Source: Sphingobium sufflavum | GTDB lineage: Bacteria; Pseudomonadota; Alphaproteobacteria; Sphingomonadales; Sphingomonadaceae | Reading direction: 5' to 3' | NCBI RefSeq assembly: GCF_021403115.1 | Contig: NZ_JAJSSH010000004.1 | Span: 62,001-126,000, forward strand | DNA length: 64,000 nucleotides | Part shown: piece after piece, positions 3,571 through 54,714 of the stretch | Numbering within the stretch: position 1 is the first letter of the stretch | Layout: every line of letters starts with the position of its first letter | Notes under the pieces: model-generated | Seen by the model: only the letters and a program-made list of their open reading frames with translations | Database searches by the model: none | What the model was told of the DNA's origin: nothing | Translations under genes and position numbers: made by a program

Positions 3571-3586
3571 AGATAGTGAGGCAATA

Positions 3587-4210: not shown

Positions 4211-4212
4211 AC

Positions 4213-4251: not shown

Positions 4252-4258
4252 CTCCGCA

Positions 4259-4999: not shown

Positions 5000-5016
5000 G
5001 ATATTCTCCCAATGAA

Positions 5017-5066: not shown

Positions 5067-5084
5067 GCGTTCAAAATGCGCGCG

Positions 5085-36953: not shown

Positions 36954-38572
36954 GCCAGCAACTCCGCCACATTCAGCGCAATCCGCCCCTGAAACTCCAC
37001 CGCCTCCACGTTCAACCGTTCCAGTTCCTCCTGCAAGGCTTCCAGCTTTTCCAGGAAGTCCTCGTCGTCTGCCTCGCCCTCGGCGACGCCGACATAGCGG
37101 CCGGGATTCAGCGACCAGCCCTGCGCTTCGATCTCCTTGCGCGAGGCCGCACGACATAAACCGGGGACGTCGCGATAGGCATCAAGCCCGCCCAGCCGCT
37201 CACGCAGCAGCGCCTCGGACCCGAAGGCCAATTCTGGCTCATTGCCTCGCCACAGGCGGACGATGTTGGCGAGGAACTCGATCTGATCGTCGCGGAAATC
37301 ACGGTGGGCGCGGTCAACTTGGTTGAAGATGTGGCGTGCATCAATGAACAGCACTTCGTTCGTCCGGTTGGTGTGCGGCTTGGCGCGGTCGAAGAACCAC
37401 AGCGTGCAGGGCAAGGTCACCGTAAGGAAGAAATTCGGACCGACCGAGACGATTACGTCCACCACGCCGCTTTCGATCAGCTTGCGCCGGATTTCCGCCT
37501 CGCTGCCGCGCGCGTCCGCTGCGCTGTTAGCCATGACGAAGCCGGCGCGGCCATTCTCGTTCAGGGCCGAATGGAACTGGCTGATCCAGATGTAATTGCC
37601 ATTGTCGGTGCTGGGCAGGCCAAAGGGGAAGCGCGGCTTCACTACCTCAGTCCCGCTCGCTGTCACCGTCTTCAGCTTGGCCTTGTCCACGCCCGACACG
37701 TTGAACGGCGGGTTGGCCATGACGAAGTCGAACCCATCGACCAGCGGCACGCCTTTGAAGGCTTCGGGCGCATCGTCATAATAGCTGTTGGTATCAGCGA
37801 TGGTGCCGGAAAGGCCATGGACCGCCAGGTTCATCTTGGCGAGGCGGATCGTCTCCTTGGTCTTTTCCATGCCAAACAGGCTGATTTCCTTGTCCGGCGC
37901 GCGTTGGTGGCGCTTCACGAAGTCTGCAGAATGAACGAACATGCCCGCCGATCCGCAGGCCGGATCGAGAATACGGCCGTGGAAGGGCTCAATGATCTCG
38001 ACGATCAGCCTGACGATCGAGCTGGGGGTGTAGAACTCGCCGCCCTTCTGCATCTCCTGCTTGGCGAATTCCCCCATGAAATATTCGTAGACATGGCCGA
38101 AGGCGTCGCCGTCGATCTCCAGCGGTTGGAGCAGGCGGATCAGCTCGATCAGCGTGTCTTTGGGAATTTCATTGAAGTTCTTGGGCAGAACGTCTTCCAG
38201 ATCGACATTGTCGCGCTCGATATCTTTCATCGCGTTGTTAAGCGCGCGGCCGACATCGGCATCCTCTGGCAGGTTGAGAAGGTACGAAAACCGCGCCTCG
38301 GGCGATAGATAGATCACCCCTTGTGCCTTGTAGTCGTCCGGCCCGGGCTTGATCCGTGAGCCGGGCTTGGGAGCCAGGGTCTGCTCCACGCTCGCGAATT
38401 GTCCCTCAGCATAGCGTAGAAACAGCAGGCCGAGCACGGGGCGACTATATTCCGATGGCTTCAGTCCGGAATTCGCACGGAGCTGGTCCGCCATCTTGAA
38501 CAGGCTGGTTTCAATTAGCTTGGGATCACTGGCCACGAATTTTGTGCTCTCGTTTCTGGTTTGCTTGTTCAT
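36950..38572 (-). CDS. hsdM: Type I restriction-modification N6-adenine methylase subunit
   Basis: The product has 540 residues from an ATG at 38572 that overlaps the preceding stop. The N-terminal helical domain ([33 protein letters not shown]) is typical of HsdM. SAM motif I is [19 protein letters not shown] and catalytic motif IV is [12 protein letters not shown]; both are intact. The C-terminal tail is acidic and helical ([25 protein letters not shown]). It should methylate adenine at the HsdS site and form M2S and R2M2S complexes. It is coupled to the preceding 591-residue gene and to hsdS. Confidence 0.95.
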
Positions 38573-40344
38573 GCGTCTTGCTGTTCGGGTGATGTGTTCC
38601 AGAATTTCCGCCACAGCGCATCCTGCATGATGCGGAGGTTGCCGATTCTTGCGTCGATGTCTTCCCGCATGGTGTCGAACTCTGTCAGCTGGCCTTCGAT
38701 CTCAGAGGCTTCTTCCGCATCAGGCACAGGAAGGGTGAGATCCTGAAGCGCGCCGATAGGCAGACTGGGAACGGTCGTGCCGCCTGCCAAAGCCTGAAGT
38801 TTTGCCCGCATCTGTGGTGACGACAGGATACCGGCGAGAACACGCGGTTCGCGAATGGCTGAACCTCGCTCCAGTCTGATGATCGCCAGACTTTGGGATA
38901 CCACAATCTGCGGGGTATCCATCAGTTCGTCGAGGATAGCGCCCATGCCGACAATGCCGACGGCGCCCACATTGCCTTTCACGCTGACAAGGATGTCATC
39001 CATCTCAACGCGTACCTTGCCGACACTCAATCTTTCACTGGCCGGGAAGCGAGCTTCCTTGGACGGCACAACGACCTTGCCATCGACGATGTCGGAAACG
39101 GCGATTTCCAGGCCGATCACGTCGTCTTCCGACGGATCTCCACGAACAGGTTGTGGCGCGCGTGGGCGCAAAATTTTGGCGATATCGCCCAGTCGGACGG
39201 TGTGACGCGCAGACAAAGCTTCGTCCATTCGGACCAGTTCGTCGCTTACGACATAGCGGTTGGGCAGGAGGGTGTAGTTCGCGCCAGCCAGTTCCTGCGT
39301 CCCAATGGTACGCGACGGCGCAGACGGCAGGCTTTCAAGGTGCTTGACGATCAAGTCTTCCTGCTCGCGGCCGCTGCGGCTGATGCGTTCCATGCTCCGG
39401 CCGTCAATGAAGGTCGCGTCGTGTCTGTCCGTCTGGTCGATTTTCAGGAGGTTGACTTGCACGCCGCTGGCGCGCCCAAAAATGCCCGGCGGTAAGCTGG
39501 CGACGGTCAGACCGCCTCGTGTGCAAAGCTGCTCGCGAAATGCGACTTCGTTCCGGCTCTCCCGGAACAGCAGGCCGTCCGCGACGACGGCCACAAAACT
39601 TTTCCGCGCACGGTACGCCAATTGCTCGACTTGCCATGCCTCGAACAGCATGCCTGCAGCGGGGCCATCCTTCATGCGATAGCTGAGTGGGGGCACCGCT
39701 ATCAGGTGGTCATATGCACCGCGCCGTGGGGAGTGGCTTTCGTCGAAAGTGAATGCCCCATCGTCGAAGGGGATGGTTTCGATCGGATTTCTGCGGTCGA
39801 CTTGCAGTGGACGACCATCGGCATATGCAAGCATCGCCATAATAATTTCAGTTTGCCAATTAGTCACATGAAGCGTGACGGGCCTGATTGTGGCGAGACC
39901 CCAGGCGATCGTGGCACTGCCAGCAAACAGGCATGCGACAGTTTCGTCTGCCGGAATGTTAAGTGAGACGCCGATCGCTGTGCCAACGCGAGGGCTGATT
40001 GGAATGAAAGATTCCCGATAGCGGGCATCATCGACCAGCGCTTCTAGTTCCACTGTCCAATCGATGGCCGCCGGAACATTAACCGGAAGAAGGCTCTGAA
40101 CGCCGCGTAACTGCGCTGTAGAAAGATTAATATCTTCAAGCCAGTCGCGAACGCGAGTCAAGGCATCTGCTTCGTTGGTCGGTTGCAGCGTCTGAGCTAA
40201 CGCCGAAAGCATGTCTGCGGGGTTCGAAACTTCGATCCCCTTGGCAGCTGCGATCATGGCCGCAAGAGCGATGGGCATCGATTCAATGCTGCGAACACCG
40301 GTTTGGGTCGACAATGAATGAGCAAGTTTGACGACAAGGCTCAC
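38569..40344 (-). CDS. Degenerate methylase fused to a specificity-type TRD, extra subunit of the type I operon
   Basis: The protein has 591 residues. Residues about 100-320 look like an N6-adenine methylase fold without its catalytic residues: [18 protein letters not shown] is where motif I with its acidic/Gly signature should be, and [17 protein letters not shown] is at the place of [36 protein letters not shown] and the strand [17 protein letters not shown] follow as in HsdM. Residues about 370-590 look like an HsdS half: [66 protein letters not shown] and a final long helix. It may be a second, pseudo-enzyme specificity subunit. Stops overlap starts on both sides. It is not part of standard type I operons, so its role is open. 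Confidence 0.7.
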
Positions 40345-40905: not shown

Positions 40906-42810
40906 TTATGGCTGCTCCTCACCGGGAACAGCTTGGCCCGGAGGCGGCGGAGGCGGGGGGAAGAAACCCATACGACCGTCATTTGGATCGCCGGTGAAGA
41001 GATGCGTCGTGATCGATGGAACCAGCGCAGTCGGCGGATCGCTATTCTCCAAAATGATGAATTGTGCTTGATCAGCGAGGCTGGCGAGGTGCCGATAAAA
41101 GCCCTCGTGCAAGGGCGTCGCGGCAAGTGCCTTTTCATCAGCGGCCAATTCGCCATAGCGCGGCACTTTGATCGGCTCGCGATAAGTTAGAAGCGGTGTG
41201 TCGAGGATCAGGATGCCGGGATGAGGGAGGCCCCGATCTTGGCAAAAGAGCAATGTGGCGACCTTGAACGCCGAATGCAGGACGGCTCGAACGCCCTTGC
41301 CATTGGCGCGGCGCTCCTTGCCGTTGAGCCAGATGTCCTGGCTTTGCGAATCGAATGAGACGGTCGGATCACCTGGAAAGCCCCAAGCCTTCAGGACTTC
41401 GGCTACCTTCACCGAAAATTCGTGGCCCGTCGGCCCATCAATGCCCACCGTCAGATTGAGCTTGGCTGGCGCGGGCGCGCTCGAGATTTGGGACAGTTGG
41501 ACCGCGAGGCGATCGCGATCCTCGTATAATTTCAGATTTTCGCGAACTTCATCGCGCTTTTCCAACCGCTCCTGATAGCCCGATCGCAAATGGGCTTCTT
41601 CAGGCCTGAGGGCTGCCAGCAAACGGTCGGCCGCGGCGATCCGTCGGGCGACACGCTGGAGGTCGTCAGCGTGGCGAATGCCATCTTGTTCGAGCAGATT
41701 GATGGTGCTGGTCAAATCCTGACGTTCGCGGTCGATGCGGGCAACTTCGGCGCGGGCCGTTGCTTTGGCGCGCTCGACGTCGCGCTTGCCGTCATGATGA
41801 TGATGCTCAGCTTCCGCGCCGCAGAGCGGGCAAGGTCGGTCAAGGCGGGCCAGCAGCAGATGCCCCCCTTGTTCGAGCGCGTTGAGCCGCTCGACGTCGG
41901 ATTCGTAAATTTCCATCAGCCGCGCAAAGCGCGCCAGGGTGAGTTCAACCTCTCGAGCTTGCGCCGAAGTCTTGTCGCGCTGGTCGATTGCCAGCCTGCG
42001 TTCGCTGGTGGCAGCGTCGATGCGCTGTTGGCGAAGGGCGAGGTCGCTCTGGAGCGTCTGCAGGCTTGCCTCCAGCTGCTTAGACTGATCCGCCAGCTGT
42101 TCGCGATCCTTGCCGACCGCATCGATCTGTTTGTCGATATCGGCGATCCACTGCTCGATCAGCTCCTTCTGACCTGCTTGGCGGGCTTTGCGGATCTTCG
42201 ACGGGATCACAGGGACGACGGCGGTATCGTCGCGTCCGGTCAGCATCAGCCGGAAGGCATTTTTCTCATAGGTGGCGCTATCGCGCTGCCCGGACAGGAT
42301 GGGGCTGCGCTGCTCGATGATCGCGCTCTCATCGACGAAAATGAAGGGATCGAAATTGCGCAGCGTGAAATTATTCTGCTCGCCATTCTCATTTCGGACG
42401 ATCTTACGACCGTCGATATCAAGATAGGCAAGGATCAGATAGGACAGGGTATCGGTCCGGTTCGCTACATGTTCGGCAACCAGGACTTGGGAGGTCGCGT
42501 CGTCGGGGACCTCGCTATGCAGGCCGTCATACAGCCGAAACGCGCCGCCCTTGATTGCACGGTACAGGGTCTTCGCGCCGGAGCCGGGGAGATCAAGACC
42601 AAGGAGCGCAGCCTCATAGCCGTCCATATGCTCGTTGGCGCTCGGTGGGGTCGAGCTGCCGAGCATATATTTCAGAGCCGCGAGTGTGAATGACTTGCCG
42701 GTGTTGGAGGCGCCGTAGACGACGTTCACGCCATCTTCGAAGCGGAGCATTGCCACCGGCCGGCCTTCGCCGACAAAGGCAAGATGGCGCAGGATTATCC
42801 GCCCGCTCAT
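40906..42810 (-). CDS. ABC-3C system ATPase (DUF3732-type, Rad50-like)
   Basis: The protein has 634 residues. The N-terminal ATPase half has VNVVYGASNTGKSFTLAALKYMLG with P-loop GASNTGKS. A long coiled coil with Rad50-like CPLCGAEAEHHHH hook follows in the middle, and the C-terminal half has GILILDTPLLTYREP as the Walker B region. This is the arrangement of the ATPase in ABC-three-component biological-conflict systems. The tail is an odd proline run (PPPPPPPGQ). Its start overlaps the middle-component stop. It presumably senses or moves on DNA ends and licenses the nuclease effector against phage or plasmids; the mechanism of this family is largely not established. Confidence 0.85.
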   Translation of the reverse strand: MSGRIILRHLAFVGEGRPVAMLRFEDGVNVVYGASNTGKSFTLAALKYMLGSSTPPSANEHMDGYEAALLGLDLPGSGAKTLYRAIKGGAFRLYDGLHSEVPDDATSQVLVAEHVANRTDTLSYLILAYLDIDGRKIVRNENGEQNNFTLRNFDPFIFVDESAIIEQRSPILSGQRDSATYEKNAFRLMLTGRDDTAVVPVIPSKIRKARQAGQKELIEQWIADIDKQIDAVGKDREQLADQSKQLEASLQTLQSDLALRQQRIDAATSERRLAIDQRDKTSAQAREVELTLARFARLMEIYESDVERLNALEQGGHLLLARLDRPCPLCGAEAEHHHHDGKRDVERAKATARAEVARIDRERQDLTSTINLLEQDGIRHADDLQRVARRIAAADRLLAALRPEEAHLRSGYQERLEKRDEVRENLKLYEDRDRLAVQLSQISSAPAPAKLNLTVGIDGPTGHEFSVKVAEVLKAWGFPGDPTVSFDSQSQDIWLNGKERRANGKGVRAVLHSAFKVATLLFCQDRGLPHPGILILDTPLLTYREPIKVPRYGELAADEKALAATPLHEGFYRHLASLADQAQFIILENSDPPTALVPSITTHLFTGDPNDGRMGFFPPPPPPPGQAVPGEEQP

Positions 42811-43310
42811 GCCGAAGGCTCGTGCAAAGTTTCGGCACCCTGAAATTCAAGGGTCCAGCGGCCGAGACGATCATGGACGATCGACCGGATCACATCTTCG
42901 GCCAGATCCTTGAAGTGGCCTGCCAGCCATTGAGCGCGCAGTTTCAAGGTGCGCGCATAGGGGGCGTCAAGCAGGTCGACAAAGGAGGGCGATTCGTCAC
43001 CGGCAGCGAAGCGGACACCGTCATCACCTTCGATGACTGTGACGAGATCGGCGTGGAGGAGAAGCTGGATGCCTTGGTCGACGAGATGGCGGCGGACCAG
43101 CAGTTCGCCGCCGCGCGATGGCAGATCGGGATGGAGGCTGTCCGGTCCCTCGATATCGGCGGTATGGACGACCAGATGATCGAACCAGGTCAATTCGCTC
43201 ATCGAACAAGTTCGGGGATGCAAGGCGTCGAGCACGACCAGTGTCCGCAGGCCGGTTTCGAGCGGGCTGTTGAAGAGCAGTACGTCCTCGCTGAGCGGTG
43301 CCGCTGTCAT
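42807..43310 (-). CDS. ABC-3C middle component
   Basis: The product has 167 residues. I chose the ATG at 43310 because it overlaps the previous stop (ATGA). It is mostly helical and contains LLFNSPLETGLRTLVVLDALHPRTCSMSELTWFDHLVVHTADI, HPDLPSRGGELLVRRHLVDQGIQLLLHADLV and AQWLAGHFKDLAEDVI, which fits the small middle components of ABC-3C systems. These are proposed to bridge the ATPase and the effector. Assignment depends heavily on gene order, but the pattern SRGGELLVRRHLVDQGI is characteristic. Confidence 0.8.
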   Translation of the reverse strand: MTAAPLSEDVLLFNSPLETGLRTLVVLDALHPRTCSMSELTWFDHLVVHTADIEGPDSLHPDLPSRGGELLVRRHLVDQGIQLLLHADLVTVIEGDDGVRFAAGDESPSFVDLLDAPYARTLKLRAQWLAGHFKDLAEDVIRSIVHDRLGRWTLEFQGAETLHEPSA

Positions 43311-44305
43311 TTCAACCATGGGAGCTTTCCATCATTGGCAAAATGATGGCAAACGCCCTGTTTGACTGGCACCCGGGCGTAACGCTGCAAAACCCCTGAC
43401 ACCTCGACATTTTTGGCTTCGATCATCACTGCCGCGATCTTGGCCATCGTGTCTGCATGGGTGAGACCATGCGTGTCATAGACGCCGTGAAAGATATCTT
43501 TCTCAAAGGTGGCGAGCACGGCCGGCTCGGTGCTGTCTCGGTAATAGCGCTTAAACGCTGCGGCATCGAAGAACCGGTCGCGCTGGACGCGAAAATGCTC
43601 GCCGAACTCTCCATGCAGTAGGGCTTCCTCGCCGCTCGCAAACTCAGGCGCGCCGCGTTCCTTATAGGCGGCAAGGAGCTGAGCCACATAAGCGGCCTCC
43701 TCGGCCTGCATCTGGTCCGGCGCTTCGCCGACCGGCGCGTCGCCGGGGTCGGCTGAGAACCAGCTGACGAGGGCGGGCTTCATCGCCTCAGTGCGCACCA
43801 ACTTGCCGGCCTCCAGGAGGGAGACCTTCTCGAAGGCGAAAGCATCTATGACCTGGCGGATTGCAGGGGACAAGGGATGATGCTCATTCTCGACCAGATG
43901 TGCGGCGCACCAATTGTCCCACTGTTCGATCAGCCTGGGCGCTATCGTGCTCGGTGTCGCGATGAGAGCCCGAGCTGTGCGGACCGCGCCGCGCGGTGCG
44001 ACGAAGATGAAACGATCAGGTGGCGGGAAATGACCGGCGGCGCTGTGGAAGAAAATCTTGGCGAGCTCGCGCAGCATGGCAGGTTCGCCTAGTGAATTGC
44101 GCAGCTGCTTGCATTGATAATTATCCCAAGGGCCATCGAACCGCGCAGTGCTATGATAGCCGACGACGTCGCGGCCCATGTCACCTGGGCCGGAGAAGCG
44201 GTCGCTGTCGGGATAGCGCGACCGCATCGACGCGACCCAATCGTCGATCAGGCGTTCGAGATCGTCACCGTCGAGCGCATAGATCTGCGCTGCGTAATTG
44301 ATCAC
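43307..44305 (-). CDS. ABC-3C effector with Mrr-like nuclease domain
   Basis: The product has 332 residues. Residues about 40-72 contain GRDVVGYHSTARFDGPWDNYQCKQ, which is the D...QxK pattern of Mrr/REase-fold nucleases. The C-terminal half is an ABC-3C-type domain: FEKDIFHGVYDTHGLTHADTMAKIAAVMIEAKNVEVSGVLQRYARVPVKQGVCHHFANDGKLPWLK. This is the first gene of the three-gene operon (effector, middle, ATPase) with overlaps of 4 bp between each pair. The system probably causes DNA cleavage on sensing an invader. The catalytic acidic residue between the Asp and Gln is assumed from the family pattern. Confidence 0.85.
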   Translation of the reverse strand: MINYAAQIYALDGDDLERLIDDWVASMRSRYPDSDRFSGPGDMGRDVVGYHSTARFDGPWDNYQCKQLRNSLGEPAMLRELAKIFFHSAAGHFPPPDRFIFVAPRGAVRTARALIATPSTIAPRLIEQWDNWCAAHLVENEHHPLSPAIRQVIDAFAFEKVSLLEAGKLVRTEAMKPALVSWFSADPGDAPVGEAPDQMQAEEAAYVAQLLAAYKERGAPEFASGEEALLHGEFGEHFRVQRDRFFDAAAFKRYYRDSTEPAVLATFEKDIFHGVYDTHGLTHADTMAKIAAVMIEAKNVEVSGVLQRYARVPVKQGVCHHFANDGKLPWLK

Positions 44306-44648
44306 GCGTGCCCCCGGTCAACCCTTTTCTGGACCGTGCATAGCAGCACGAACGCGCCAATGGGAGAGGGATGCGCGCCCTTTTGGATGGTCAAATATTA
44401 GGGCACGATGCTGACCAGCAGCTTTGCACAGGCTGAACGGCAACTGTTATCAGGACGGGACATTCACCGAAGCTGACCGGGACGACCGAGCCTGGTCGGG
44501 GGCTGTGGGTGGCCTTGCGCCACATCCCGTCGTTCGAGAGCGACTTTCGCGCCTTCAGAAGCGGACGTTCGGCTTTGGCAGTTTTTATTGGACTGGGGAC
44601 AAAAGGGCATTCGAGCCACAATGGAACGAAGGGGTGGACCGCAAGCGG
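44306..44648. other. Junction region with no convincing gene
   Basis: These bases lie between the ABC-3C promoter and the P450 fragment. Short frames on both strands have no recognisable motif and no ribosome site. I found no copy here of the tRNA-Leu 3' end that would mark the right attachment site. The break in the P450 gene at about 44.69 kb suggests this is where element DNA meets another segment. Confidence 0.5.
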
Positions 44649-44930
44649 TCATTGCGGGCTCAGCCAAGCCGCGACGATGTACGCGACTATGGGGGCGCTG
44701 GAGAAGATGTCCGGGTTGCGCATTACCCGGACAGCATCACCATATTTCAACACCATCCAGTGGCCGCCGTTGCGCGGTGTCCAAAACAATGGCGGTGCCT
44801 CCTCGACCAGCCGCAGAATGCGCTCGTGCGGATCCGTGAGAAGGCCCCGATCATTGTGGATGTCGAAATCATAAACCAGCGCCGCAGGCACATGGGCCGG
44901 ACAGGTGGCTAGCGCTTGGGCATCCGACAT
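44649..44930 (-). pseudogene. Cytochrome P450, N-terminal fragment
   Basis: The ATG at 44930 begins MSDAQALATCPAHVPAALVYDFDIHND, and GLLTDPHERILRLVEEAPPLFWTPRNGGHWMVLKYGDAVRVMRNPDIFSS follows, which is the start of a bacterial class I P450 of the CYP108/CYP153-like type. After NPDIFSSAP the reading frame turns to unrelated IVAYIVAAWLSPQ and stops. About three-quarters of the normal 400 residues, with the heme Cys, are absent and are not seen in other frames nearby. It lies last in the minus-strand operon 47462-45003, so a P450 was once co-transcribed with the oxidase-like subunits. Confidence 0.75.
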
Positions 44931-45002
44931 GGCGACAATGCTCCTGAAATTGGCGTTTCGTGAAGTTCTCTTGGTACACTGCCCTGTCACGGACAGCGGC
45001 TT

Positions 45003-45281
45003 TCAAACGATATACGCAGTGGTCAGGGCAGCTATGAACAGCGCAAGGAGCGCATCGCTCATGTGTCGCAAGCGTGCCGGAGCATGTCTGACGTCCATGA
45101 ACTCGCGAAGGATTACACGAACCTTCACCGCAGTGATGGCTATCGCACCAAAGGCCACCGCCAGGTCAGGCTTCAAAGGGCCAGTTCCATGGTGGGCGCC
45201 AATCCACCAGGCGAGGAGGGTGACGGCCGATAGGCCGAACCAGCTCAGGAGGAGCCGGCTCTGGGTAGAAATCTGCATCAC
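45003..45281 (-). CDS. Cytochrome c oxidase subunit IV family protein
   Basis: The product has 92 residues with three predicted membrane helices: LLLSWFGLSAVTLLAWWIG, LAVAFGAIAITAVKVRVILREFMDV and DALLALFIAALTTAYIV. The AITAVKVRVILREFMDVRHAP segment is typical of the prokaryotic COX4/NorF-like family. These small subunits assist assembly of heme-copper oxidases or nitric oxide reductase. No catalytic subunit I or copper-binding subunit II is in the window. It follows the subunit III gene by 1 bp. Confidence 0.75.
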   Translation of the reverse strand: MMQISTQSRLLLSWFGLSAVTLLAWWIGAHHGTGPLKPDLAVAFGAIAITAVKVRVILREFMDVRHAPARLRHMSDALLALFIAALTTAYIV

Positions 45282-45282
45282 A

Positions 45283-45891
45283 TCACCTCATGATATAGAG
45301 AAGCGCAAAAATGATCACCCACAGGAAATCGACCATGTGCCAGTAAGTGGCGCAAGTCTCGACGATCTCTTGGGAACGGCGCCTTGGACTCGATAGCTGA
45401 TAGATCGCAACGCCGAGAACGATGAAGCCTACCAGTACGTGCAGCAAATGCATTCCGGTCAGGAAATAGTAGAAGGAAAAGAACTCATTACTGGAAAAAT
45501 ACAGTCCTTCGCCAATCTTGAGCGACCACTCGTAAAGCTTCAGGGCGAGGAAGGTGAGTCCGCAGCCAACGGTTAGCCAGACATTGGCAATCGCGCCGCT
45601 AAAGTTGCCATTCCGCGATTTCTCGACGGCGAGGGCGATCGACCAGGAGCTGGTCAGGAGTATGAGTGTGTTGATCACACCGAACAGCAAGTTCAGATGA
45701 GACTGCGCTTCAAGAAAGGCCACGCTATTGGCCTTGTAGCTGTAGGTGTAGACAACGAAATAGGAAAAGAATGTCAGAGCCTCGATCAGGACGAGGATCC
45801 ACATATCAGGCTGGCCCGGTGTGGAGGGCACCGTCCCGACGCCGGCCTTGCCAGGGGCGCGGGACAGACTGTCACGTGCGGCTTTTGTCAT
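45283..45891 (-). CDS. Cytochrome c oxidase subunit III-like protein (NorE-type)
   Basis: The product has 202 residues with a short charged N-terminus and five predicted helices. WILVLIEALTFFSYFVVY, INTLILLTSSWSIALAVE, YYFLTGMHLLHVLVGFIVL and TCATYWHMVDFLWVIIFALLYIM are the classic subunit III signatures, including GMHLLHV and YWHMVDFLWV. This is an orphan of the five-helix type seen as NorE. In known systems it stabilises the catalytic subunit; here its partners would be the two membrane proteins upstream. The genes are in one transcript with an intact ribosome site each. Confidence 0.88.
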   Translation of the reverse strand: MTKAARDSLSRAPGKAGVGTVPSTPGQPDMWILVLIEALTFFSYFVVYTYSYKANSVAFLEAQSHLNLLFGVINTLILLTSSWSIALAVEKSRNGNFSGAIANVWLTVGCGLTFLALKLYEWSLKIGEGLYFSSNEFFSFYYFLTGMHLLHVLVGFIVLGVAIYQLSSPRRRSQEIVETCATYWHMVDFLWVIIFALLYIMR

Positions 45892-45936
45892 GGTTAAATC
45901 TTTCTGTGCTGGAGCGCAGGCTAAATGCGGGCCGCA

Positions 45937-46731
45937 TCATCGAAGGTCGGGGAGAGGCAGCTTCTCCTGGTCCTGCTTTTCGATCATCGTCTTGAGCAGC
46001 GTTATGAAGCAGCCAGTGTAGATACCGAACACCACCATGTTGATATTGAAGGCGATCATTCCGTTCCAGGCGAACGGGCCTTCTTTCATGATGCAACAGG
46101 TTGCAACGACCACCTCCGTAAGTGCGTTGCAGATGTTGAAGTATCCGAACCATTTCGGAAGGATGCTATTTTTGTCGAGCAGAATGGCGACTGCCCAGAT
46201 GACCGACCCAATCAGAAATATGCCCATCGTGCCGCTGAATGACAGAAAGCCCATGTCATAGAGGAGACCGATCAACTTGGGATCGCGGTCCGGACGCAAC
46301 GCACCGACCACCAAGGCAATGCAGGTCAGCAGCATGCCTGGCACAGCTGCCAGCGAATAGATGATCAGATAGATGTTAGCAAAGACCGGGCTGACCGACA
46401 TGCGACGCATTGAGTAGCAAATCAGGGCCGTCGATGCGATGCTGAGCGCACCAATCAGGAACATGATGCCGAATCCGAACAACAGCCCAAAGTGGTTTTC
46501 GTTGAACCACCACATGATCTTTGGGAGATCCCACCATGCCTTTGGCGGCGGCTGTGTCCGCGTAATGAGAAAGAATACAACGCCGAAGATATTGTAGAAT
46601 ACTACAATCGCGTACCATGCCAGCCATTGCTCGATATTCGGGTTATGACGCCAGTTCCACGCGATCTTACCGATTTTGGATAATGGCACCGGCGGGACGG
46701 CCAGCGACCCATTCATCGGGATACTGCTCAT
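45937..46731 (-). CDS. Polytopic membrane protein of unknown function, related to its upstream neighbour
   Basis: The protein has 264 residues and about six to seven transmembrane helices: WLAWYAIVVFYNIFGVVFFLI, FGLLFGFGIMFLIGALSIAS, IYLIIYSLAAVPGMLLTCIALV, GIFLIGSVIWAVAILLD, ALTEVVVATCCIM and FNINMVVFGIYTGCFITLL. The pattern ALRPDRDPKLIGLLYDMGFLSF parallels AFRPERDPSLIQLFNDLAWVTF in the next gene, and LPKWFGYFNICNALTEV parallels LPTWYAHFNLLTAVALA, so the two are diverged paralogs. I do not recognise a named family. Overlap with the previous gene (ATGA) indicates joint expression. Conserved His residues for heme are not evident. Confidence 0.7.
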   Translation of the reverse strand: MSSIPMNGSLAVPPVPLSKIGKIAWNWRHNPNIEQWLAWYAIVVFYNIFGVVFFLITRTQPPPKAWWDLPKIMWWFNENHFGLLFGFGIMFLIGALSIASTALICYSMRRMSVSPVFANIYLIIYSLAAVPGMLLTCIALVVGALRPDRDPKLIGLLYDMGFLSFSGTMGIFLIGSVIWAVAILLDKNSILPKWFGYFNICNALTEVVVATCCIMKEGPFAWNGMIAFNINMVVFGIYTGCFITLLKTMIEKQDQEKLPLPDLR

Positions 46732-47462
46732 ATTTCGGTTCCTTCTTCACGGCGCTGGCGGTGAATGGTGCTGCCGATCGTGAAACCGGTCACGATGATC
46801 CACAGGGCGATTGCGATGTTTTTGACCCAGAAGGAGAGCAGCCCGTCCCACGCCAACGGTCCATCGAGCGCCATCGTGGCGAAGGCCGCCGGTGCCAGCG
46901 CAACCGCAGTGAGCAGGTTGAAGTGTGCATACCAGGTCGGGAGGATCTTCCGCGTCTGCCGGTCAAGGTAGATGGCGAGAGCAAGGAACACGCTTTGCGC
47001 CACGAGGAAGCCCACTTGGCTTGTGAAAGTAACCCAAGCGAGATCGTTGAACAGCTGGATCAGGGACGGATCGCGTTCAGGGCGAAAGGCGGCGAGCAGC
47101 CAGTATAGATCGGCCATGCAGAAGAGCGTTGGGCCACCAGCAATACAGCCGAGAAAACAATAGCTCATGATCGGCGTATTGTGCGCCATCCGACGCATCT
47201 GCGAGGCGATCAGCGCCAGGAACGGAATCAGGGCGACACCGAACCAGTTGAACACAATCATGCTGTAGCGGATGCGGGGAAGATTATCGGGGTCGCGATA
47301 AAAGGCGGCGACAGCATCAGCTGACAACGTCGGCGACATCGGGTGCACGAAACCTGGGAAACCAAGGAACGCTAGAAACCAGATTATACCGATGACCGGC
47401 AGCGACCATAGCAGCAATAGCTCTCCATCGACGCTTGCCCTTTGGCTAACCAGATTTGTCAT
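46728..47462 (-). CDS. Polytopic membrane protein of unknown function, first gene of the oxidase-like operon
   Basis: The protein has 244 residues from the ATG at 47462 with a GGAG site. It has six to seven predicted helices: LLLWSLPVIGIIWFLAFLGF, YSMIVFNWFGVALIPFLALI, IMSYCFLGCIAGGPTLFCMADLYWLLAAF, FLVAQSVFLALAIYLD and a final IAIALWIIVTGFTIGS. The body carries the AFRPERDPSLIQLFND motif shared with the second gene. The N-terminal periplasmic loop has HPMSPTLSADAVAAFYRDPDNL. The pair may form a heterodimer. I know no function for this family; co-occurrence with oxidase subunits and a P450 suggests a redox membrane complex. Confidence 0.7.
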   Translation of the reverse strand: MTNLVSQRASVDGELLLLWSLPVIGIIWFLAFLGFPGFVHPMSPTLSADAVAAFYRDPDNLPRIRYSMIVFNWFGVALIPFLALIASQMRRMAHNTPIMSYCFLGCIAGGPTLFCMADLYWLLAAFRPERDPSLIQLFNDLAWVTFTSQVGFLVAQSVFLALAIYLDRQTRKILPTWYAHFNLLTAVALAPAAFATMALDGPLAWDGLLSFWVKNIAIALWIIVTGFTIGSTIHRQRREEGTEI

Positions 47463-47640
47463 CACGGGACTCCATTCGATAAATTCATGTCGGGAAATGC
47501 AGTCGAAACCGCACCGGGGGGGGGGCGCCTCAAAGGCGGAAATATGGCGATTGGTGATGTTTGGCTCGAAATGCCCGCGCTGCGGATCCGGACCACGGGT
47601 GCGCCACAATTCGCTCGCTCCGGAACCGGACACTCGACGC

Positions 47641-47674
47641 AAAAAAATGGGGAGGTCTCTGACAAGACCTCCCC
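47641..47674 (-). terminator. Rho-independent terminator of the third TonB receptor gene
   Basis: On the minus strand, AGACCTCCCC-type arms (47649-47658 and 47665-47674, 10-bp perfect stem, 6-nt loop) are followed by ATTTTTTTG. It lies 48 bp past the receptor stop and upstream of the oxidase-like operon. Confidence 0.9.
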
Positions 47675-47722
47675 ACCAATGCACCTGAGTATCGGGGAGG
47701 ATACGATGCAGGCTGCATTCGA

Positions 47723-50143
47723 TTATCGAGATCCGAAGGCGACGCGCAGGTTCAATCCGAACTCACGCGGCTGCGTCATCGAAACAGCGAAGTAGCTGCT
47801 GTTAAAGACACGACTTCCCGTCGGGGCCTGAGCGACTTCGCGATAGGCCGTGAAGGTTGGACCATTGCTCCTGGTCAGGACTTTTTCGAGGTTCGCAACA
47901 TTCTTTACGAATGCCGATATTTCCCAGGATCCATCGTGCGCGCGCACGCCTGTGTAGAGGTTGAGCAGGCCATAGCTGCTGATGTTGTCATAAGAATTTG
48001 TCGGGTCACCCTGGGATGCGCCGGTGAACGTGAACAACCCGCGCACATAAGCATCCAGCCGATCGTCGAGGGGCAGATTATACTCCGACTGTATGTTCGC
48101 GCTGAATGGAGAATTGAAGCCCGACCGGGTCGAAACGCGACATCCAGAAATGTCATTGGAACCGGTCGCAGCCCTCAAATCAGTCAGGCTCGGTGCGGAG
48201 CCAGCCCCATCAGGCGTGCCGTCGCTATTCAGGTCATTGCACGGGATAAGGCCGTTCTGGATCTTGCCCAATGAGTAGGCCGCATTGACGCCAAGATTGA
48301 AACGCGAGGAAGGCCGAAACTGAATTTCCGCTTCGACGCCGTTGATCTCGATCGGAACCGCGCTGACAAAATTGAAAGCACTTACGCCCTGAACCAGCGT
48401 GGGCGGCGTTGTCGCCGTGTTAGCCGACGTATTGATGAAGTACACCCCTGCGCCGGGAGCGCGATAAGGATAGTTTTTGAACGTCTGATGGAAGCCAGTG
48501 ACATTTACGTTCAGTCGCCGGTCGAACCATGACGACTTCACGCCGGCTTCATAGGATTTGGATGTCTCGGGTAGAACCTGCAAAAAGCTGGTTTCGAGGG
48601 CAGACCGTTGGAGGTCCGAGTTACCCACCACGTCGATTTGCGGGCGCCAGCTGCTGCCGGTGCTGGCATAGGCCATGATGTCGGGTGTGACCTGATATTT
48701 GACGGATGCCGAGTAGATCCAGGCGTTGCTGGACGGATGAATATCCTGAAGCACGGCATTGAACGCCGGGATAGTCAGGCGCTTGGTTTCATCGAAGCTG
48801 ATGTAGCGAACACCACCAGAGATTTCGAAGCTATCTCCCAGATGCGCGGTCACATTGCCGAATAGCGACTTTTCGATGGCCCGGCCCCGACGCTGAACCA
48901 GAGTTTTGGCGGGATTTGGGGTTGCCGCTGGCAGGGCGTTGCCGAATGCTGTCAGGAAGGTATCTGTCGTGATGTCTGACGGTGGTGTGCTGCGGCGATA
49001 GAAGCCTCCGACCACATAGTCGAACATATCGAAAACGCGGGTCTCGTTCTGGAGACGCAGTTCGTGGGTCCAGTCTGTCGCGTCGGTAACAGTGAGCTGG
49101 CCGAAGTCCCGCCCTGGGAAGGCGTTGGCGCTGTCACCATTGTTTGTGCCGGTATTGAAGATGTTAGACTGAAAACGGTTATACGAGCCGACATAGACGA
49201 GCTGTTGGCCCGCGAAGGCGTAGCGCGCCTGCCAGTTCACCGTGTCATATGTCTGGTTCTGGGTGGAGGGAAGGTCGGCTATGCCGAGGCGATCCTTGGC
49301 GGAAATGAACAATGGACTGGCGGCCGCTCCGGGGATCACTTCGGACAGCGATTCAACCTGCTCCCATCGCCGGGCCTTCAAGTGAAGGTGCTGGTACATG
49401 ACGTCGAACTGGAGCGAACTCGTCGGTTCGACGCGAAGCGATATCCGGTACGCTTCTGTTTTCGAGATTGGCTTGCCAGGTGGAGTGGCGGGCTTGACGA
49501 ATGTTGACCTATTCTCGTCATACAGGCCGGCGATGCGGAGAGCGGCGACACCCTTTATTAGTGGAATATTGACGGCCGCGTTGGCGTTATAGCCTCCCAT
49601 GTCCGTTGCCGTGAAATTGCCATACCCGCCGTAATCATAAAGGTCAGGCCGATGTGTGGTGACCGTGACCGAGCCGGAGGGAGACGCGCGGCCACGCAGC
49701 GTGCCTTGTGGTCCACGCAGAACCTCGATCTGGCCGATGTCGAATACGGACTGGATCAGGGCGCCCGCCTGGATCGAAGCGTCGTTGAAATAGAATTCGA
49801 CCGTGCCATTGTTGCCGCTGGCAAGGACGTCGAAGTTGACGCCACGGACAGAAGCATTTCCGCCGATACCGGTGGAGCTCGTGCCAAGCGATAAGCCAGG
49901 GACAACCGTCGAGATATCGCTGAACTGGCGCAGGTTCAGTTTCGCCAGTGTGTCCGAGGTCACGACGTTAACGACCGTCGGCACGTCCTGCACAGATTCC
50001 TGCTTTCGCCGTGCCTCAACAACAATTTCTTCCGATTCTACGCGGGCGCTCGCTCCCTCCGACTGGGCGGATTGCGCGAAAGCAGGGTAAGCCCATGCGA
50101 GCGAAATCAGTCCGCTACATGCAATTAAGTGATTGGTTTTCAT
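47723..50143 (-). CDS. TonB-dependent receptor
   Basis: The protein has 806 residues from the ATG at 50143 with a GGGGAGG site. The signal peptide is MKTNHLIACSGLISLAWAYPAFAQ. The plug carries EIVVEARRKQESVQDVPTVVNVV and LRGPQGTLRGRASPSGSVTVTT; the barrel ends REFGLNLRVAFGSR. It is of the sphingomonad FecA/BtuB-like type (QSVQDVP TonB box region) associated with catabolic or steroid/terpenoid-like gene clusters. It is transcribed towards the oxidase-like operon but has its own strong terminator. It is divergent from a TetR regulator. Confidence 0.9.
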   Translation of the reverse strand: MKTNHLIACSGLISLAWAYPAFAQSAQSEGASARVESEEIVVEARRKQESVQDVPTVVNVVTSDTLAKLNLRQFSDISTVVPGLSLGTSSTGIGGNASVRGVNFDVLASGNNGTVEFYFNDASIQAGALIQSVFDIGQIEVLRGPQGTLRGRASPSGSVTVTTHRPDLYDYGGYGNFTATDMGGYNANAAVNIPLIKGVAALRIAGLYDENRSTFVKPATPPGKPISKTEAYRISLRVEPTSSLQFDVMYQHLHLKARRWEQVESLSEVIPGAAASPLFISAKDRLGIADLPSTQNQTYDTVNWQARYAFAGQQLVYVGSYNRFQSNIFNTGTNNGDSANAFPGRDFGQLTVTDATDWTHELRLQNETRVFDMFDYVVGGFYRRSTPPSDITTDTFLTAFGNALPAATPNPAKTLVQRRGRAIEKSLFGNVTAHLGDSFEISGGVRYISFDETKRLTIPAFNAVLQDIHPSSNAWIYSASVKYQVTPDIMAYASTGSSWRPQIDVVGNSDLQRSALETSFLQVLPETSKSYEAGVKSSWFDRRLNVNVTGFHQTFKNYPYRAPGAGVYFINTSANTATTPPTLVQGVSAFNFVSAVPIEINGVEAEIQFRPSSRFNLGVNAAYSLGKIQNGLIPCNDLNSDGTPDGAGSAPSLTDLRAATGSNDISGCRVSTRSGFNSPFSANIQSEYNLPLDDRLDAYVRGLFTFTGASQGDPTNSYDNISSYGLLNLYTGVRAHDGSWEISAFVKNVANLEKVLTRSNGPTFTAYREVAQAPTGSRVFNSSYFAVSMTQPREFGLNLRVAFGSR

Positions 50144-50424
50144 ATAGATAACCTCCCCGTTTTGTTTCGTTGAGTTGAGCGAGCGTCCATGTGCTGGACA
50201 TCGTCGCCGCACAACTGTGGATAGCGAAATGACTTATAGAACACAATATCCTAAAAGTGCAATCAGGTTGCAAAAGTGTGCTGAGGCACTACCTGCGAAG
50301 GCAACACGGCAGCCCATGGGGTTTGGCGGCGACCGCGGCGCTGGATCGAACGACAAGGGTGAATTGTGGCGCTCAGTTGCGTTTGCAATGGGACCACGAT
50401 AGCGAAGAGCGAAATGGTGAGCAG

Positions 50425-51021
50425 GTGATTAGAGTGAGTGAAGGTCAGGCGTTGCCACTTGCGGAGCGGTCTGATCCTCGCATCAGGCGGACTCGCAAAG
50501 CGTTCCGGCAGGCGCTGCAGGAATTGTTGCAGGAGATGCCGCTCGAAGCCATTACAATCAGGGACATCGTTGCGCGCGCGGATATCGCATACACTACCTA
50601 TTTCAGACACTATGCGACCAAAGAGGCGTTGCTAGACGACCTCGCCCACGAGGAAATCGGCAAGCTGCTGGATCTTACCTATCCGGTGATGGCATCCAAA
50701 AATGGTTACGCTTCGTGCGAAACGCTCTGTCTCTACGTTTCAGCTAATCGGGCTCTATGGAGCGCATTGCTGACGGGCGGCGCGCAGGGAGCGATCCGCA
50801 CGGCTTTTGTCGAACTGACGCTAGCCCGCGAATCCCAGTGGCCACAGGTCCAGTCCTGGCTGCCCAAGGATATTGGCACGACGCTGGCCGTCACATCAAT
50901 CGTCGAACTCCTGGCATGGTGGCTGAGACAAGTCGAGCCGGTCCTGCCAGCGCGGGTGGCTGAAATAATGGACAGGGTCATCGTGTCGACATTGATGGGA
51001 ACGGCGTATGCCGAGCCATGA
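50425..51021 (+). CDS. TetR family transcriptional regulator
   Basis: The protein has about 198 residues. The start is uncertain: GTG at 50425 or 50434 both fit; the open frame extends upstream to 50257 without an appropriate site. The HTH is RIRRTRKAFRQALQELLQEMPLEAITIRDIVARADIAYTTYFRHYATKEALLDDL. The C-terminal domain is helical and mostly unassigned. It is divergent from the TonB receptor, and a TGCAA-TCAGG-TTGCA inverted repeat at 50258-50272 in the gap could be its operator. It probably controls the receptor and perhaps the oxidase-like operon. Confidence 0.85.
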   Translation: MIRVSEGQALPLAERSDPRIRRTRKAFRQALQELLQEMPLEAITIRDIVARADIAYTTYFRHYATKEALLDDLAHEEIGKLLDLTYPVMASKNGYASCETLCLYVSANRALWSALLTGGAQGAIRTAFVELTLARESQWPQVQSWLPKDIGTTLAVTSIVELLAWWLRQVEPVLPARVAEIMDRVIVSTLMGTAYAEP

Positions 51022-51205
51022 CGCGGACGCCAGTCTTGGAGTGTTGCATTGCTGGACCCGCGCCCCGAAACGGTAATTTATCTTTCGCGGTACGTAGGGG
51101 CAATAAGGTCGCTTCCGCCACTCGGTTATTGGCAGCTATGACCGTTTACCTGCCCGTAAGCTGTCATTCCGCTAACGGCCAAAACGGGACGAGAAAAGAG
51201 CGACC

Positions 51206-51235
51206 AGTTGCCCGCCAAAGTATTGGCGGGCAACT
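51206..51235. terminator. Perfect 13-bp hairpin between TetR and VOC genes
   Basis: The arms AGTTGCCCGCCAA (51206-51218) and TTGGCGGGCAACT (51223-51235) pair fully around AGTA. They sit between convergent genes. The minus-strand side is followed by a T-rich stretch (CGCTCTTTTCTC), so it should terminate the VOC gene, and possibly tetR. Confidence 0.75.
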
Positions 51236-51263
51236 GACTCAGGCTAAACGATGCAAAGCCGCG

Positions 51264-51662
51264 TCATTTGGGAAAGTGGATTCCGCATAGTTTGTTTCCA
51301 TCTAGATCGCGGAAATACGCCAGTACGATCGTACCCATAGACGCTGTTTCGCGAGGACCGGGCGCTACCTCGATCGACGTGCCACCATTGGCAACTGCAA
51401 CATCATGAAACTGCTTCACCTGCTCTGGCGAATCGCAAGAAAAAGCAATGGTGCTGCCGTTCGCAACAGTGGCTGGTTCATCATTGATCGGCTGGGTGAC
51501 AATGAAATTGGCCCCATTCCCACTGTTGTACATCAGGCGCGTGTGGCCACTGTCGGCCACGTTGATCGTCGCCTCTCCAACGCCGAGGGTGCCTAGCACC
51601 GTGTCGTAAAAGCGCTTCGCTCGGTCGATGTCGTTCGACCCCACCATCGTGTGAAAAAGCAT
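51264..51662 (-). CDS. VOC superfamily (glyoxalase/bleomycin resistance-like) protein
   Basis: The protein has 132 residues from the ATG at 51662 with GTAGGAGAA. The beta-alpha-beta-beta-beta modules are clear: MLFHTMVGSNDIDRAKRFYDTVLGTLGVG at the start, then FIVTQPINDEPATVANGSTIAFSC and FHDVAVANGGTSIEVAPGPRETASMGTIVLAYFRDLDGNKLCGI at the end. H4 and a late E/H pair could be metal ligands. VOC proteins catalyse varied isomerisation, dioxygenase or resistance reactions; this one cannot be narrowed. It converges on tetR and precedes the phage integrase region. Confidence 0.88.
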   Translation of the reverse strand: MLFHTMVGSNDIDRAKRFYDTVLGTLGVGEATINVADSGHTRLMYNSGNGANFIVTQPINDEPATVANGSTIAFSCDSPEQVKQFHDVAVANGGTSIEVAPGPRETASMGTIVLAYFRDLDGNKLCGIHFPK

Positions 51663-52073
51663 GTGTATTCTCCTACTTGGGCCACGCCATGACTGAACAG
51701 TGCCCGCGCTCGGCCATAGCAGGATCGAACGCGCGGTCACGCTTGGATCGTTGGGCTGACGGTGGCATGCTTGTATCGATAGGGACAGAAGTCGCACCTT
51801 GGTCGATGGGCGACAGGCCGCTATTTTCCGCCGACGAACGTGTCGCCTGCCCAAGAGAGGACCGGCGGCTATCGCCTCTTACTCATCGGTAAGCAGACAT
51901 TCCGAAATCGGCCAGCCTTCAGCCACGTTTGATAGAAATTTCCCAATGATTTGAGTGCCCATCTTTGGACCCTGCGGGGCACCATTTGTTCTCATGGCAT
52001 TGAAATGCCTGAGAAAAGGCGGAAACCAAGGGTTTTGCGGCAAGTGACTGCTACAAAAGCAGAGATTTGCAAC
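51663..52073. other. Boundary region between the VOC gene and the phage-type integrase
   Basis: No gene is convincing in these 411 bp. GTGCCC (51955-51960) and GGGCAC (51977-51982) form a small inverted repeat directly upstream of the integrase, and GGGCACCATT there equals the last bases of the tRNA-Leu region at 18451-18460. No tRNA cloverleaf can be built. It is the likely location of one end of region D. Confidence 0.5.
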
Positions 52074-53597
52074 ATGCCTTCACACATGTTTCGTCGCGGC
52101 GCGGTCTATTGCACCCGCCTTGTTGTTCCTCCTCGGCTCAGGCCAATTATCGGCAAGTCCGACCTAGGGCGCTCGCTCAAAACCAAAGATGCCAAGGAAG
52201 CTCAGCGGCTCTACCCCGCGTGGCTGGCAACGGCTCAAGCGACGATTGACGCAGCGGAACAGGAATTGGCCCGGCAGCAGGCGTCAGTTGATGAGCAGGC
52301 CGCGCCTTTCGACCCATTTGGCGGAATGACCCAAGAGGAAGCCGAGACGCGCCAGCGGCAACAATGGGCCGATGCTTGGAAAATCTCCGCTGAGGATGAC
52401 CGCATAACGGATGCGGAGGCGTGGCTTGCGGGCTTGCCCGACGATCACCCCGCCGTCATCGTTCGGAACGAGGAGAGGGCGCGGGGCGACAGATACGAGG
52501 GGCGCTATCGCAGGCGGAAGCAGAGGGACGTTGCCCGCCCACCCGCTGAGAAAATGCGGTCCGACTCGGTGTCGCTGCGGGAGGGTTCGGAACCAGAGCG
52601 CAAAGGCGTCTATCTCGACACTGATATTGTCGATGGCTGGGCCGCTGAACGCAAGCCGACCGCACGGGGCAAGGATGCCTACTGGCGAGACGCCAAGTTG
52701 TTCAACACCCTGATGGGCAGGAAGTCGGTCGAACTCATCACTAAAACCGATGTGATGGCCTACAAGCGCCTACTGATCGCGGACCCAAAGCGTTCTCAGG
52801 TCAATGTGCGTGACCGGCTGGCGTACCTCCGCACATTGCTGGAGTGGGCCGCGCAGAATGATGTCATTGCCGATAATCCGGCAAGAGACGTGAAAATGGC
52901 GGTTAAGGAAAAGCGCGCTAAGCGCAAGGACTTCTCAGCCGACGACCTCAACGCCCTATTCGCTTGTCCCGTCCACGCCCTTGGACAACGGCCAAAGGGT
53001 AGCTTTGGCGAGGCTGCATACTGGCTTCCTCTCGTCGCAATCTACATGGGTGCGCGCCGGGAGGAGATTGGCCAGCTAAGGGTAAGCGACGTTCGGCTTG
53101 AGGCGTACATTGATGAGGCGGACGAGCGGCGGGAAGCGTGGTGCATCGACGTCATAGAAATGGGCGACGACGACGATGAGGGTGCGGCCCTCCCTACGGC
53201 TGTAAAGAACGAGGCGAGTATGCGACTGGTCCCGATACACCCCAAGCTGATCGAACTTGGGTTCGTGGACTATGTGCAAAACCTCCCCGATCAGAGCGGG
53301 CGAGTATTCCCTGAACTCAAGCCTGTGGGGATAGGGCAGAAACTCACCGACAAGTGGGGGCAGTGGTTCACTAAATACAAGCGAGCCTGCGGCATCACCG
53401 ACAAGCTAAAGGTCTTTCATTCCCTTCGGCACACATGGAAAACTCATGCGGGCAACATGGGCATGCCGGAGCGGGTTCAGCGGCAGTTTATGGGCCATGA
53501 GGGCAAGGACGCGGCAGAAAAATACGGGTCTGCCCCTGCCATGCACGTCCTTGTCGCGGCCATCGCCTCGTATCGGGTGCCCGGCTTGAAGTTGTAG
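52074..53597 (+). CDS. Tyrosine recombinase/integrase with DUF6538-type N-terminus
   Basis: The product has 507 residues from the ATG at 52074; the frame is open further up to 51951, but MPSHMFRRGAVYCTRLVVPPRLRP is the usual DUF6538 start. The catalytic region has Arg in YMGARREEIGQLRVSDV, HxxR in FHSLRHTWKTH and the Tyr in GHEGKDAAEKYGS. It should integrate and excise the phage-derived island 52.0-63.5 kb. No attachment site can be defined from this window. A second, broken integrase is at 54711, so the island may be composite. Confidence 0.92.
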   Translation: MPSHMFRRGAVYCTRLVVPPRLRPIIGKSDLGRSLKTKDAKEAQRLYPAWLATAQATIDAAEQELARQQASVDEQAAPFDPFGGMTQEEAETRQRQQWADAWKISAEDDRITDAEAWLAGLPDDHPAVIVRNEERARGDRYEGRYRRRKQRDVARPPAEKMRSDSVSLREGSEPERKGVYLDTDIVDGWAAERKPTARGKDAYWRDAKLFNTLMGRKSVELITKTDVMAYKRLLIADPKRSQVNVRDRLAYLRTLLEWAAQNDVIADNPARDVKMAVKEKRAKRKDFSADDLNALFACPVHALGQRPKGSFGEAAYWLPLVAIYMGARREEIGQLRVSDVRLEAYIDEADERREAWCIDVIEMGDDDDEGAALPTAVKNEASMRLVPIHPKLIELGFVDYVQNLPDQSGRVFPELKPVGIGQKLTDKWGQWFTKYKRACGITDKLKVFHSLRHTWKTHAGNMGMPERVQRQFMGHEGKDAAEKYGSAPAMHVLVAAIASYRVPGLKL

Positions 53598-53626
53598 CAG
53601 CCCGCAGAATTGATTGCGGGCACTTC

Positions 53627-53845
53627 TCAGCGTGATCCCGCATGTTGCCCTAGCCTCGTCGCCTGTTGAGGGCGGCGGGGCTGAGAACCGTTCTCCGCGC
53701 ATCTCGCCCACGCCAGCGCGCCCTGCATAAACGGCCCGTCATCCTGTTCCCCGTCGCGCACCTGACGCAGGAACTCCCGGTTGCCATGCCCGCGTTGCTC
53801 CAGCGCGTCCGCCACCGCTGATCGTATCTCCGCAATCTGTTCCAT
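53627..53845 (-). CDS. Small protein, unknown
   Basis: The product has 72 residues from the ATG at 53845 with a strong GAAGGAGG site; the longer frame begins at 53878. It contains MEQIAEIRSAVADALEQRGHGNREFLRQVRDGEQDDGPFMQGALAWARCAE and a basic tail. No family is recognised. It converges on the integrase gene and could be a regulator of it. Confidence 0.55.
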   Translation of the reverse strand: MEQIAEIRSAVADALEQRGHGNREFLRQVRDGEQDDGPFMQGALAWARCAENGSQPRRPQQATRLGQHAGSR

Positions 53846-54145
53846 ATCGTCCTCCTTCGGAGAACATATGATGAACATTGGGCGAGTCGGTCAAGGCCCT
53901 GCGGCGTAACGAGTTGCGGCTAACCTATCCCACGATGACTAGCAGTTGTCATGTTATGAGGGTTGTATAAACTAATCGTAATTTATCATACCCGAATAAC
54001 TTATGGAAAAAGACCAGTAATGGTGAAACTAAACCTTTAGTTATGCAGGATAATTTGCACATTTATTTTATATTACTTCAAAGTTACTATTGACCTCATT
54101 TAGCGAATATAGCACTTGGCGGCCCTCTTTGGCGAATATGGGACA
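53846..54145. other. AT-rich promoter-like region
   Basis: It is much lower in GC than the neighbourhood, with TTGACC at about 54090, repeated TTTAGCGAATATAG and TTTGGCGAATATGG elements (about 54098 and 54128), and no gene. It is the likely promoter of the second integrase operon; the repeats may be operator half-sites. Confidence 0.5.
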
Positions 54146-54541: not shown

Positions 54542-54714
54542 CCGACCCGGAACCAATCTTCACGGTGCCCGCCCTCGCAGAGCGTTGGTCCGTATCCGAC
54601 ACCTTCGTCTATACCCTCCTTAATCGGGGAGAACTGGCGGGGTTCAAGTTAGGCGGAAAGCTCTGGCGGGTGAAGCAGGCGGACGTAATGGAGTACGAGG
54701 AGAGGCCAGCATGA
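54538..54714 (+). CDS. Small excisionase-like HTH protein
   Basis: The product has 58 residues and overlaps both neighbours (ATGA). The sequence FTVPALAERWSVSDTFVYTLLNRGELAGFKLGGKLWRVKQADVMEYE is a MerR-type/excisionase winged helix: aromatic and RG-L-x-x-x-R-G-x-L-W-R pattern. Such proteins bind att DNA and favour excision. Its position immediately before an integrase supports this. Confidence 0.8.
   Translation: MTDPEPIFTVPALAERWSVSDTFVYTLLNRGELAGFKLGGKLWRVKQADVMEYEERPA

Follow-up and report, generated by a model that had tools for sequence, protein, structure and literature searches.

A NorE/NorF-like gene pair in a likely operon with two membrane proteins of an unnamed family in Sphingobium sufflavum

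The 64,000-nucleotide stretch of Sphingobium sufflavum analysed here (the window) carries on its minus strand, from 47462 to 44649, a tight array of four membrane protein genes closed by a truncated cytochrome P450 gene. We propose that this operon encodes a variant (X-X-NorE-NorF) of an undescribed membrane module, X-NorE-NorF, which would stand apart from heme-copper enzymes: a NorE/NorF-like pair appears to stay with X, a six-helix protein of an unnamed family, in place of a catalytic subunit. A sequence-only reading had seen in the same genes orphan oxidase subunits III and IV with two membrane proteins, and had suggested an undescribed redox complex feeding or using a P450.

The X-X-NorE-NorF array and its relatives

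Read along the minus strand, the array begins with X_B (46728–47462; 244 aa from its ATG, in a reading frame that stays open further upstream, to 47684), followed by its paralogue X_A (45937–46731; 264 aa), a NorE-like protein of subunit III type (45283–45891; 202 aa), a NorF-like protein of subunit IV type (45003–45281; 92 aa) and the P450 stub (44649–44990; 113 aa). The X_B stop and the X_A start overlap by 4 bases, and gaps of 45, 1 and 12 bases precede the III-like gene, the IV-like gene and the stub, respectively; because of this tight spacing, the genes from X_B to the stub likely form one operon. The pair matches the Pfam families COX3 (PF00510; 7.2e-13, 49.4 bits against a cut-off of 23.8) and COX4_pro (PF03626; 4.1e-11, 43.5 bits against 28.9). 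Open reading frames, Pfam matches and spacing confirm that two paralogous six-helix proteins, a III-like gene, a IV-like gene and a cut P450 lie together here, as the sequence-only reading, which counted six to seven helices, had described. GC content is lower in the operon (0.556) than in the window (0.612).

The set recurs in other genomes, as the earlier reading supposed. In a neighbourhood survey by profile searches, 33 of 43 X loci had X, a III-like and a IV-like gene on one strand within ~2.5 kb, in the order X-NorE-NorF at 31 of them and NorE-NorF-X at 2. The pair lies on the other strand at two further loci, one locus is cut by a contig end and seven have X alone. Among the 43 loci are pairs of close relatives, L045/L046 and the plasmid copies L066/L067; plasmid matches in an unannotated Rhodococcus koreensis sequence (H1), a second Pseudonocardia plasmid (H6) and a second Sphingobium amiense plasmid (H25) were left out. 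At L047 and L027 the X gene is fragmented. Three more complete trios, more divergent, were found at pairs retrieved through COX4_pro. Across 35 loci, X, NorE and NorF show correlated distances (r = 0.69, 0.46 and 0.59), with none of 5000 permutations as high in a Mantel test that retains shared species history. X, NorE and NorF are a conserved unit beyond chance.

X was found in Sphingomonadaceae and further Alphaproteobacteria, and the trio spans Alpha- and Betaproteobacteria and Actinomycetota, the last by plasmid-borne copies from a profile search that covered plasmids but not actinobacterial chromosomes. Plasmids with X come from Rhodococcus, Mycobacterium, Pseudonocardia, Streptomyces, Sphingobium, Novosphingobium, Diaphorobacter and Azoarcus. 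Few of the sampled genomes carry X: its profile matched 15 of 249 genomes of the bacterial family (the matches in four of them, G069, G174, G193 and G235, being partial or weak), 6 of 289 of the class and 2 of 398 of the phylum, the S. sufflavum genome being counted each time. The tandem arrangement of X is common to the window and Novosphingobium JCM 18896 (L021), the one relative found when genome contigs were scanned for short peptides with X_A, which is 76% identical to its counterpart there over the best segment. A plasmid of Mycobacterium paragordonae (L065) has a second X gene (5772–6473) on the opposite strand, ~1.5 kb from its trio.

Kinship of the III/IV-type pair and the absent subunit I

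Comparison of orphan III-like copies with other subunits III brought out a signature at position 118, which was afterwards checked on NorE references. Lysine occupies this position in all 39 orphan copies, the window protein among them, and in 6/6 NorE-type references, as against none of 12 other subunits III (Gln in 11, Glu in 1). Thirty-seven of the orphan copies have X in view (L025 and L061 with the pair on the opposite strand) and two, L096 and L101, do not; the 12 others include two odd second copies with Gln118 (L086_858 and L087_823), which group nearest to NorE. In a maximum-likelihood tree the orphan copies and NorE form a clade with an SH-like approximate likelihood ratio test (SH-aLRT) value of 79.5 and an ultrafast bootstrap (UFBoot) value of 92, rising to 95.2/99 when the two odd copies are added. 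The III/IV genes are therefore NorE/NorF-like, with moderate tree support, judging by sequence. Trios and NorE do not separate cleanly, because a Thiothrix copy (L140) pairs in the tree with the Azoarcus trio L069. This copy is one of six NorE-type relatives examined; the stretch covered holds norQ/norD-like genes and no norB. Relatives of the III-like protein on plasmids, outside the trios, include pairs from nor operons in Labrenzia, Rhizobium, Gemmobacter and Agrobacterium.

The usual companion of NorE and NorF is the nitric oxide (NO) reductase NorCB. The window pair resembles NorE and NorF of the norEFCBQD operon in being an adjacent III-type and COX4_pro-type pair, in Lys118 and in its place in the same moderately supported clade; it differs in that pairs of its type are usually preceded by X, and norC, norB, norQ and norD are not listed beside the trio in any annotated trio locus. 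With CyoC/CyoD and COX3/COX4 it shares the Pfam families and the core residues E121, H148, H151, W184-H185 and D188, whereas there is no subunit I in the window cluster, position 118 is Lys rather than Gln or Glu, and the tree branch is a separate one. The label 'oxidase subunits III and IV' in the sequence-only reading thus holds at the level of the families COX3 and COX4_pro, while Lys118 and the tree favour NorE/NorF and disfavour canonical oxidase subunits. A review states that the function of the norE, norF, norQ and norD products 'is not well defined' (PMC8139620). The NorE/NorF-like pair of an Azospirillum plasmid (L139, 3489–4364), another of the six relatives examined, adjoins a coenzyme A (CoA) transferase gene, and neither X nor nor genes are annotated in this stretch.

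The earlier remark that no subunit I accompanies the pair was confirmed by a genome-wide search. A search for subunit I (PF00115) across the 4.43-Mb assembly of 37 contigs returned one protein, on contig C14 and none on the window's contig (C32); the C14 protein was taken for aa3-type and a full-length subunit III is encoded close to it, so that the window pair is an orphan. NorB belongs to PF00115 too, and since the only gene of this family adjoins a full-length subunit III, the genome has no NO reductase of the family.

These results bear on the possibility that the NorE/NorF-like pair, with X as an adaptor, docks on a resident heme-copper oxidase or modulates the chemistry of NO and O2, and so tunes respiration during oxygenase-heavy catabolism. 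Such a role would fit the sequence similarity that the pair shows to subunits III/IV and NorE/NorF, and a subunit I is encoded elsewhere both in this genome and in each of 16 genomes searched. We nevertheless consider it unlikely: the S. sufflavum subunit I already has a full-length subunit III nearby, and the trio is located among catabolic genes, also on plasmids.

Protein X

The two X copies are paralogues (33% identity over 165 aa, 8e-23), and iterated searches started from either collect the same family. That this family is unnamed, as had been noticed from the sequence alone, was upheld for the window copies, which have no meaningful match in Pfam or NCBIfam (best E 0.15). A structure model of X_A has six helices of membrane length and one short helix, with a predicted local distance difference test (pLDDT) score of 84.6. 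Foldseek with this model gave nothing at E ≤ 0.001 (best 0.55), and a profile search of the PDB with X gave no match. With VIA-align, designed helical bundles, rhodopsins and receptors reached Z scores as high as 11.8, from which no inference is drawn because such scores are common for helical bundles.

Six positions are invariant in 26 aligned X members (R123, D136, P169, W171, G195 and G201). Positive charge peaks in the X_A loop 160–172, which suggests a cytosolic position for this loop and a periplasmic one for the PP (38–39) and RP (123–124) motifs and the 195–201 loop, a topology that is tentative because the remaining loops are near neutral. No column of the same alignment has a conserved His or Cys (column maxima Cys 13/26 and His 8/26), so that binding of heme or a metal by X is unlikely.

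X is similar in length to DUF4386 (PF14329), and members in two genomes, G088 and G415, pass the Pfam cut-off for that family (31.2 and 28.3 bits against 27.6). Matches at E up to 1 are confined to 4 of the 26 members, whereas the other 22, the window copies included, have none, and hhalign of X against DUF4386 was negative with a DUF4386 side of three clear members only. The link between the families is marginal by these profile comparisons. A lone X on a Streptomyces plasmid (L070, 1–8660) has annotated genes for mycofactocin (mftA to mftG), a hydroxylase and a flavin reductase directly upstream.

Surroundings of the unit and its possible role

The stub at the end of the operon confirms the earlier remark that the P450 is cut. 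Its residues 25–101 align with the N-terminal part of CYP101J2 (4.6e-11), the homology stops near 44688, and the reading frame ends at 113 aa, without the catalytic C-terminal half and its heme-binding Cys; it has no Pfam match. It thus shares with CYP101 P450s (the P450cam group) this match and differs from them in being an N-terminal part only. Compared with eight neighbouring P450 sequences, it is closest (45% over 73 aa) to the P450 at locus L132 of genome G143. There, at 3338–5675, the stub-like P450 lies directly upstream of a NorE-NorF-like pair with no X in view, and the X gene of G143 is on a different contig, beside another P450.

Elsewhere, of 30 sites in sampled genomes, 5 (L039, L041, L047, L063 and L132) have a P450 within 1 kb versus 0.42 expected (Poisson P = 7e-5), and still at 5 of 30 within 5 kb versus 1.34 expected (P = 0.012). 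The sites were counted apart from the window, L021 and the plasmids, with a P450 profile built on six motif-selected reading frames and with expectations taken from the P450 density of each genome at rounded genome size. The five include the broken P450 of L047 and, at L039, one P450 that is a fragment; at L047 (9513–11246, genome G203), X and the adjoining P450 are both in pieces. A Streptomyces plasmid copy also has a P450 directly upstream. The neighbouring P450s are 23–33% identical to one another, except L041 and L047 (44%), and, as they differ so, there is no single P450 partner. P450s are over-represented beside the unit, not obligatory: the tie proposed in the sequence-only reading recurs, but 25 of the 30 sites (a few of them with contigs ending close by) lack a P450 within 1 kb.

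The same counts bear on the proposed membrane redox complex, which would feed electrons to the P450. Both the excess of P450s within 1 kb and the Streptomyces copy speak for it, whereas X has no conserved His or Cys, which leaves a redox role unsupported, and most sites are without an adjacent P450. We know of no cofactor in III- and IV-type subunits, and CYP101-type P450s use a soluble ferredoxin. A redox complex is therefore very improbable, and we rejected it for the missing ligands in X and the incomplete P450 linkage.

We compared genes within 5 kb of 29 sites (129/197 called) with controls (140/177 called; 20 regions drawn from nine of these genomes). The survey leaves out the window, L021, the plasmids and L045 (L046 being kept), its gene calls come from a crude reading-frame heuristic, and its counts are those of the first 25 families of the Pfam tables, so that 'at most 1' means outside these. 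Acyl-CoA dehydrogenases were more frequent near the unit (PF00441, 7 versus at most 1; PF08028, 6 versus 2), and so were enoyl-CoA hydratases (6 versus at most 1), acyl-CoA ligases, short-chain dehydrogenases and APH-like kinases (each 5 versus at most 1) and Rieske oxygenases and P450s (each 3 versus at most 1). The P450 count adds little to that within 1 kb, because at least two of the three, and perhaps all, come from L039 and L047. Two Rhodococcus copies have MCE lipid-import genes at a distance of up to ~5 kb. Judged by gene families, the surroundings are aerobic degradation regions of CoA-type catabolism, with several enzymes typical of hydrophobic substrates. A membrane stress or export module travelling with catabolic genes, serving solvent tolerance or the efflux of toxic intermediates, would sit equally among such neighbours and on plasmids; we give it a low probability, and no known efflux family is among the matches of X.

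We infer that X, NorE and NorF would form one non-redox complex in the inner membrane, with X in the docking place of subunit I. At a guess, such a complex might assist an aerobic pathway in dealing with a lipophilic substrate, or with O2, at this membrane, so that the pathway's first enzymes in the cytosol (a P450, a Rieske oxygenase, or an acyl-CoA ligase or dehydrogenase) could act. A lipid-filled cleft is a known feature of III-type subunits. As the linked P450 is cut here, the module may serve another pathway in this genome. We put this forward tentatively, with well under even confidence.

A number of observations weigh against it. The NorE clade has only moderate support, and the III-like branch of the window and L021 (99.3/100) falls outside known NorE and the other trios. 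X stands without NorE/NorF nearby at 7 of the 43 loci (L038, L041, L047, L052, L054, L059 and L070), and NorE/NorF-like pairs occur without X in view (L132, L139). The correlated distances may partly carry species history, and the synonymous divergence (dS) from Novosphingobium JCM 18896 is 1.0–1.5. There is little or no enrichment of luciferase-like monooxygenases (LLM; 3 versus 2 in controls), TonB receptors (3/129 versus 2/140) or zinc alcohol dehydrogenases (6 versus 3), the neighbouring pathways vary without a single substrate, and genes of these kinds abound in catabolic regions in any case. Finally, III-type subunits are, to our knowledge, known only as accessories of heme-copper enzymes, and lipid or gas transfer by them would be an extrapolation.

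Upstream of the operon lie a TonB-dependent receptor gene (47723–50212, minus strand; PF00593, 1.7e-32), a neighbour that may not belong to the unit, and a TetR-family gene (50257–51021, plus strand; PF00440, 2.8e-6), a possible local regulator. The link to both that the sequence-only reading drew survives in part: a TetR gene, 45% identical to that of the window at the protein level, is kept next to the homologous operon of L021, while the TonB association is weak by the neighbour counts, and TonB receptors are common in these bacteria. Past the stub, a Lamassu anti-phage system (LmuA 43307–44305, LmuC 42807–43319, LmuB 40906–42810) begins ~380 bases beyond the end of P450 homology, and its arrival may have cut the P450, although the link is positional only; region 44300–44700 has no plasmid match, and 43900–54800 has no repeats of 18 bases or more. 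Further on, translations at 32617–40344 read as type I restriction-modification genes, and a search with the 38569–40344 protein pointed to a specificity-subunit-like C-terminal part. To the right of the operon, a gene at 51951 is tyrosine recombinase/integrase-like, and reading frames from there up to 63468 suggest, by translation, another integrase along with a resolvase and phage proteins.

With its P450 truncated, and with Lamassu genes on one flank and an integrase-like gene on the other, the operon could be a decaying remnant that is losing function in this genome. We regard this as quite improbable: all four membrane reading frames are intact, and their ratios of nonsynonymous to synonymous substitution (dN/dS) against Novosphingobium JCM 18896 are 0.17–0.24, values that are rough because of the dS noted above and that cover the whole divergence, so that a very recent loss would not show. 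The four membrane genes are under purifying selection.

We found no paper on the X-NorE-NorF trio, nor on DUF4386, in a literature that was incompletely covered. The broadest form of our proposal, that a III/IV-type pair has been re-used in two phyla without a heme-copper subunit, with X as its new partner, and supplies lipophiles or O2 to catabolic enzymes, is rather doubtful. If it were true, orphan NorE/NorF-like pairs would reveal the function of these subunits by themselves. A trio with no adjacent NO reductase or oxidase is a clean setting in which to study III/IV-type subunits alone, and it suggests that degradation pathways include a conserved membrane step, for which records annotate oxidase subunits and a hypothetical protein.

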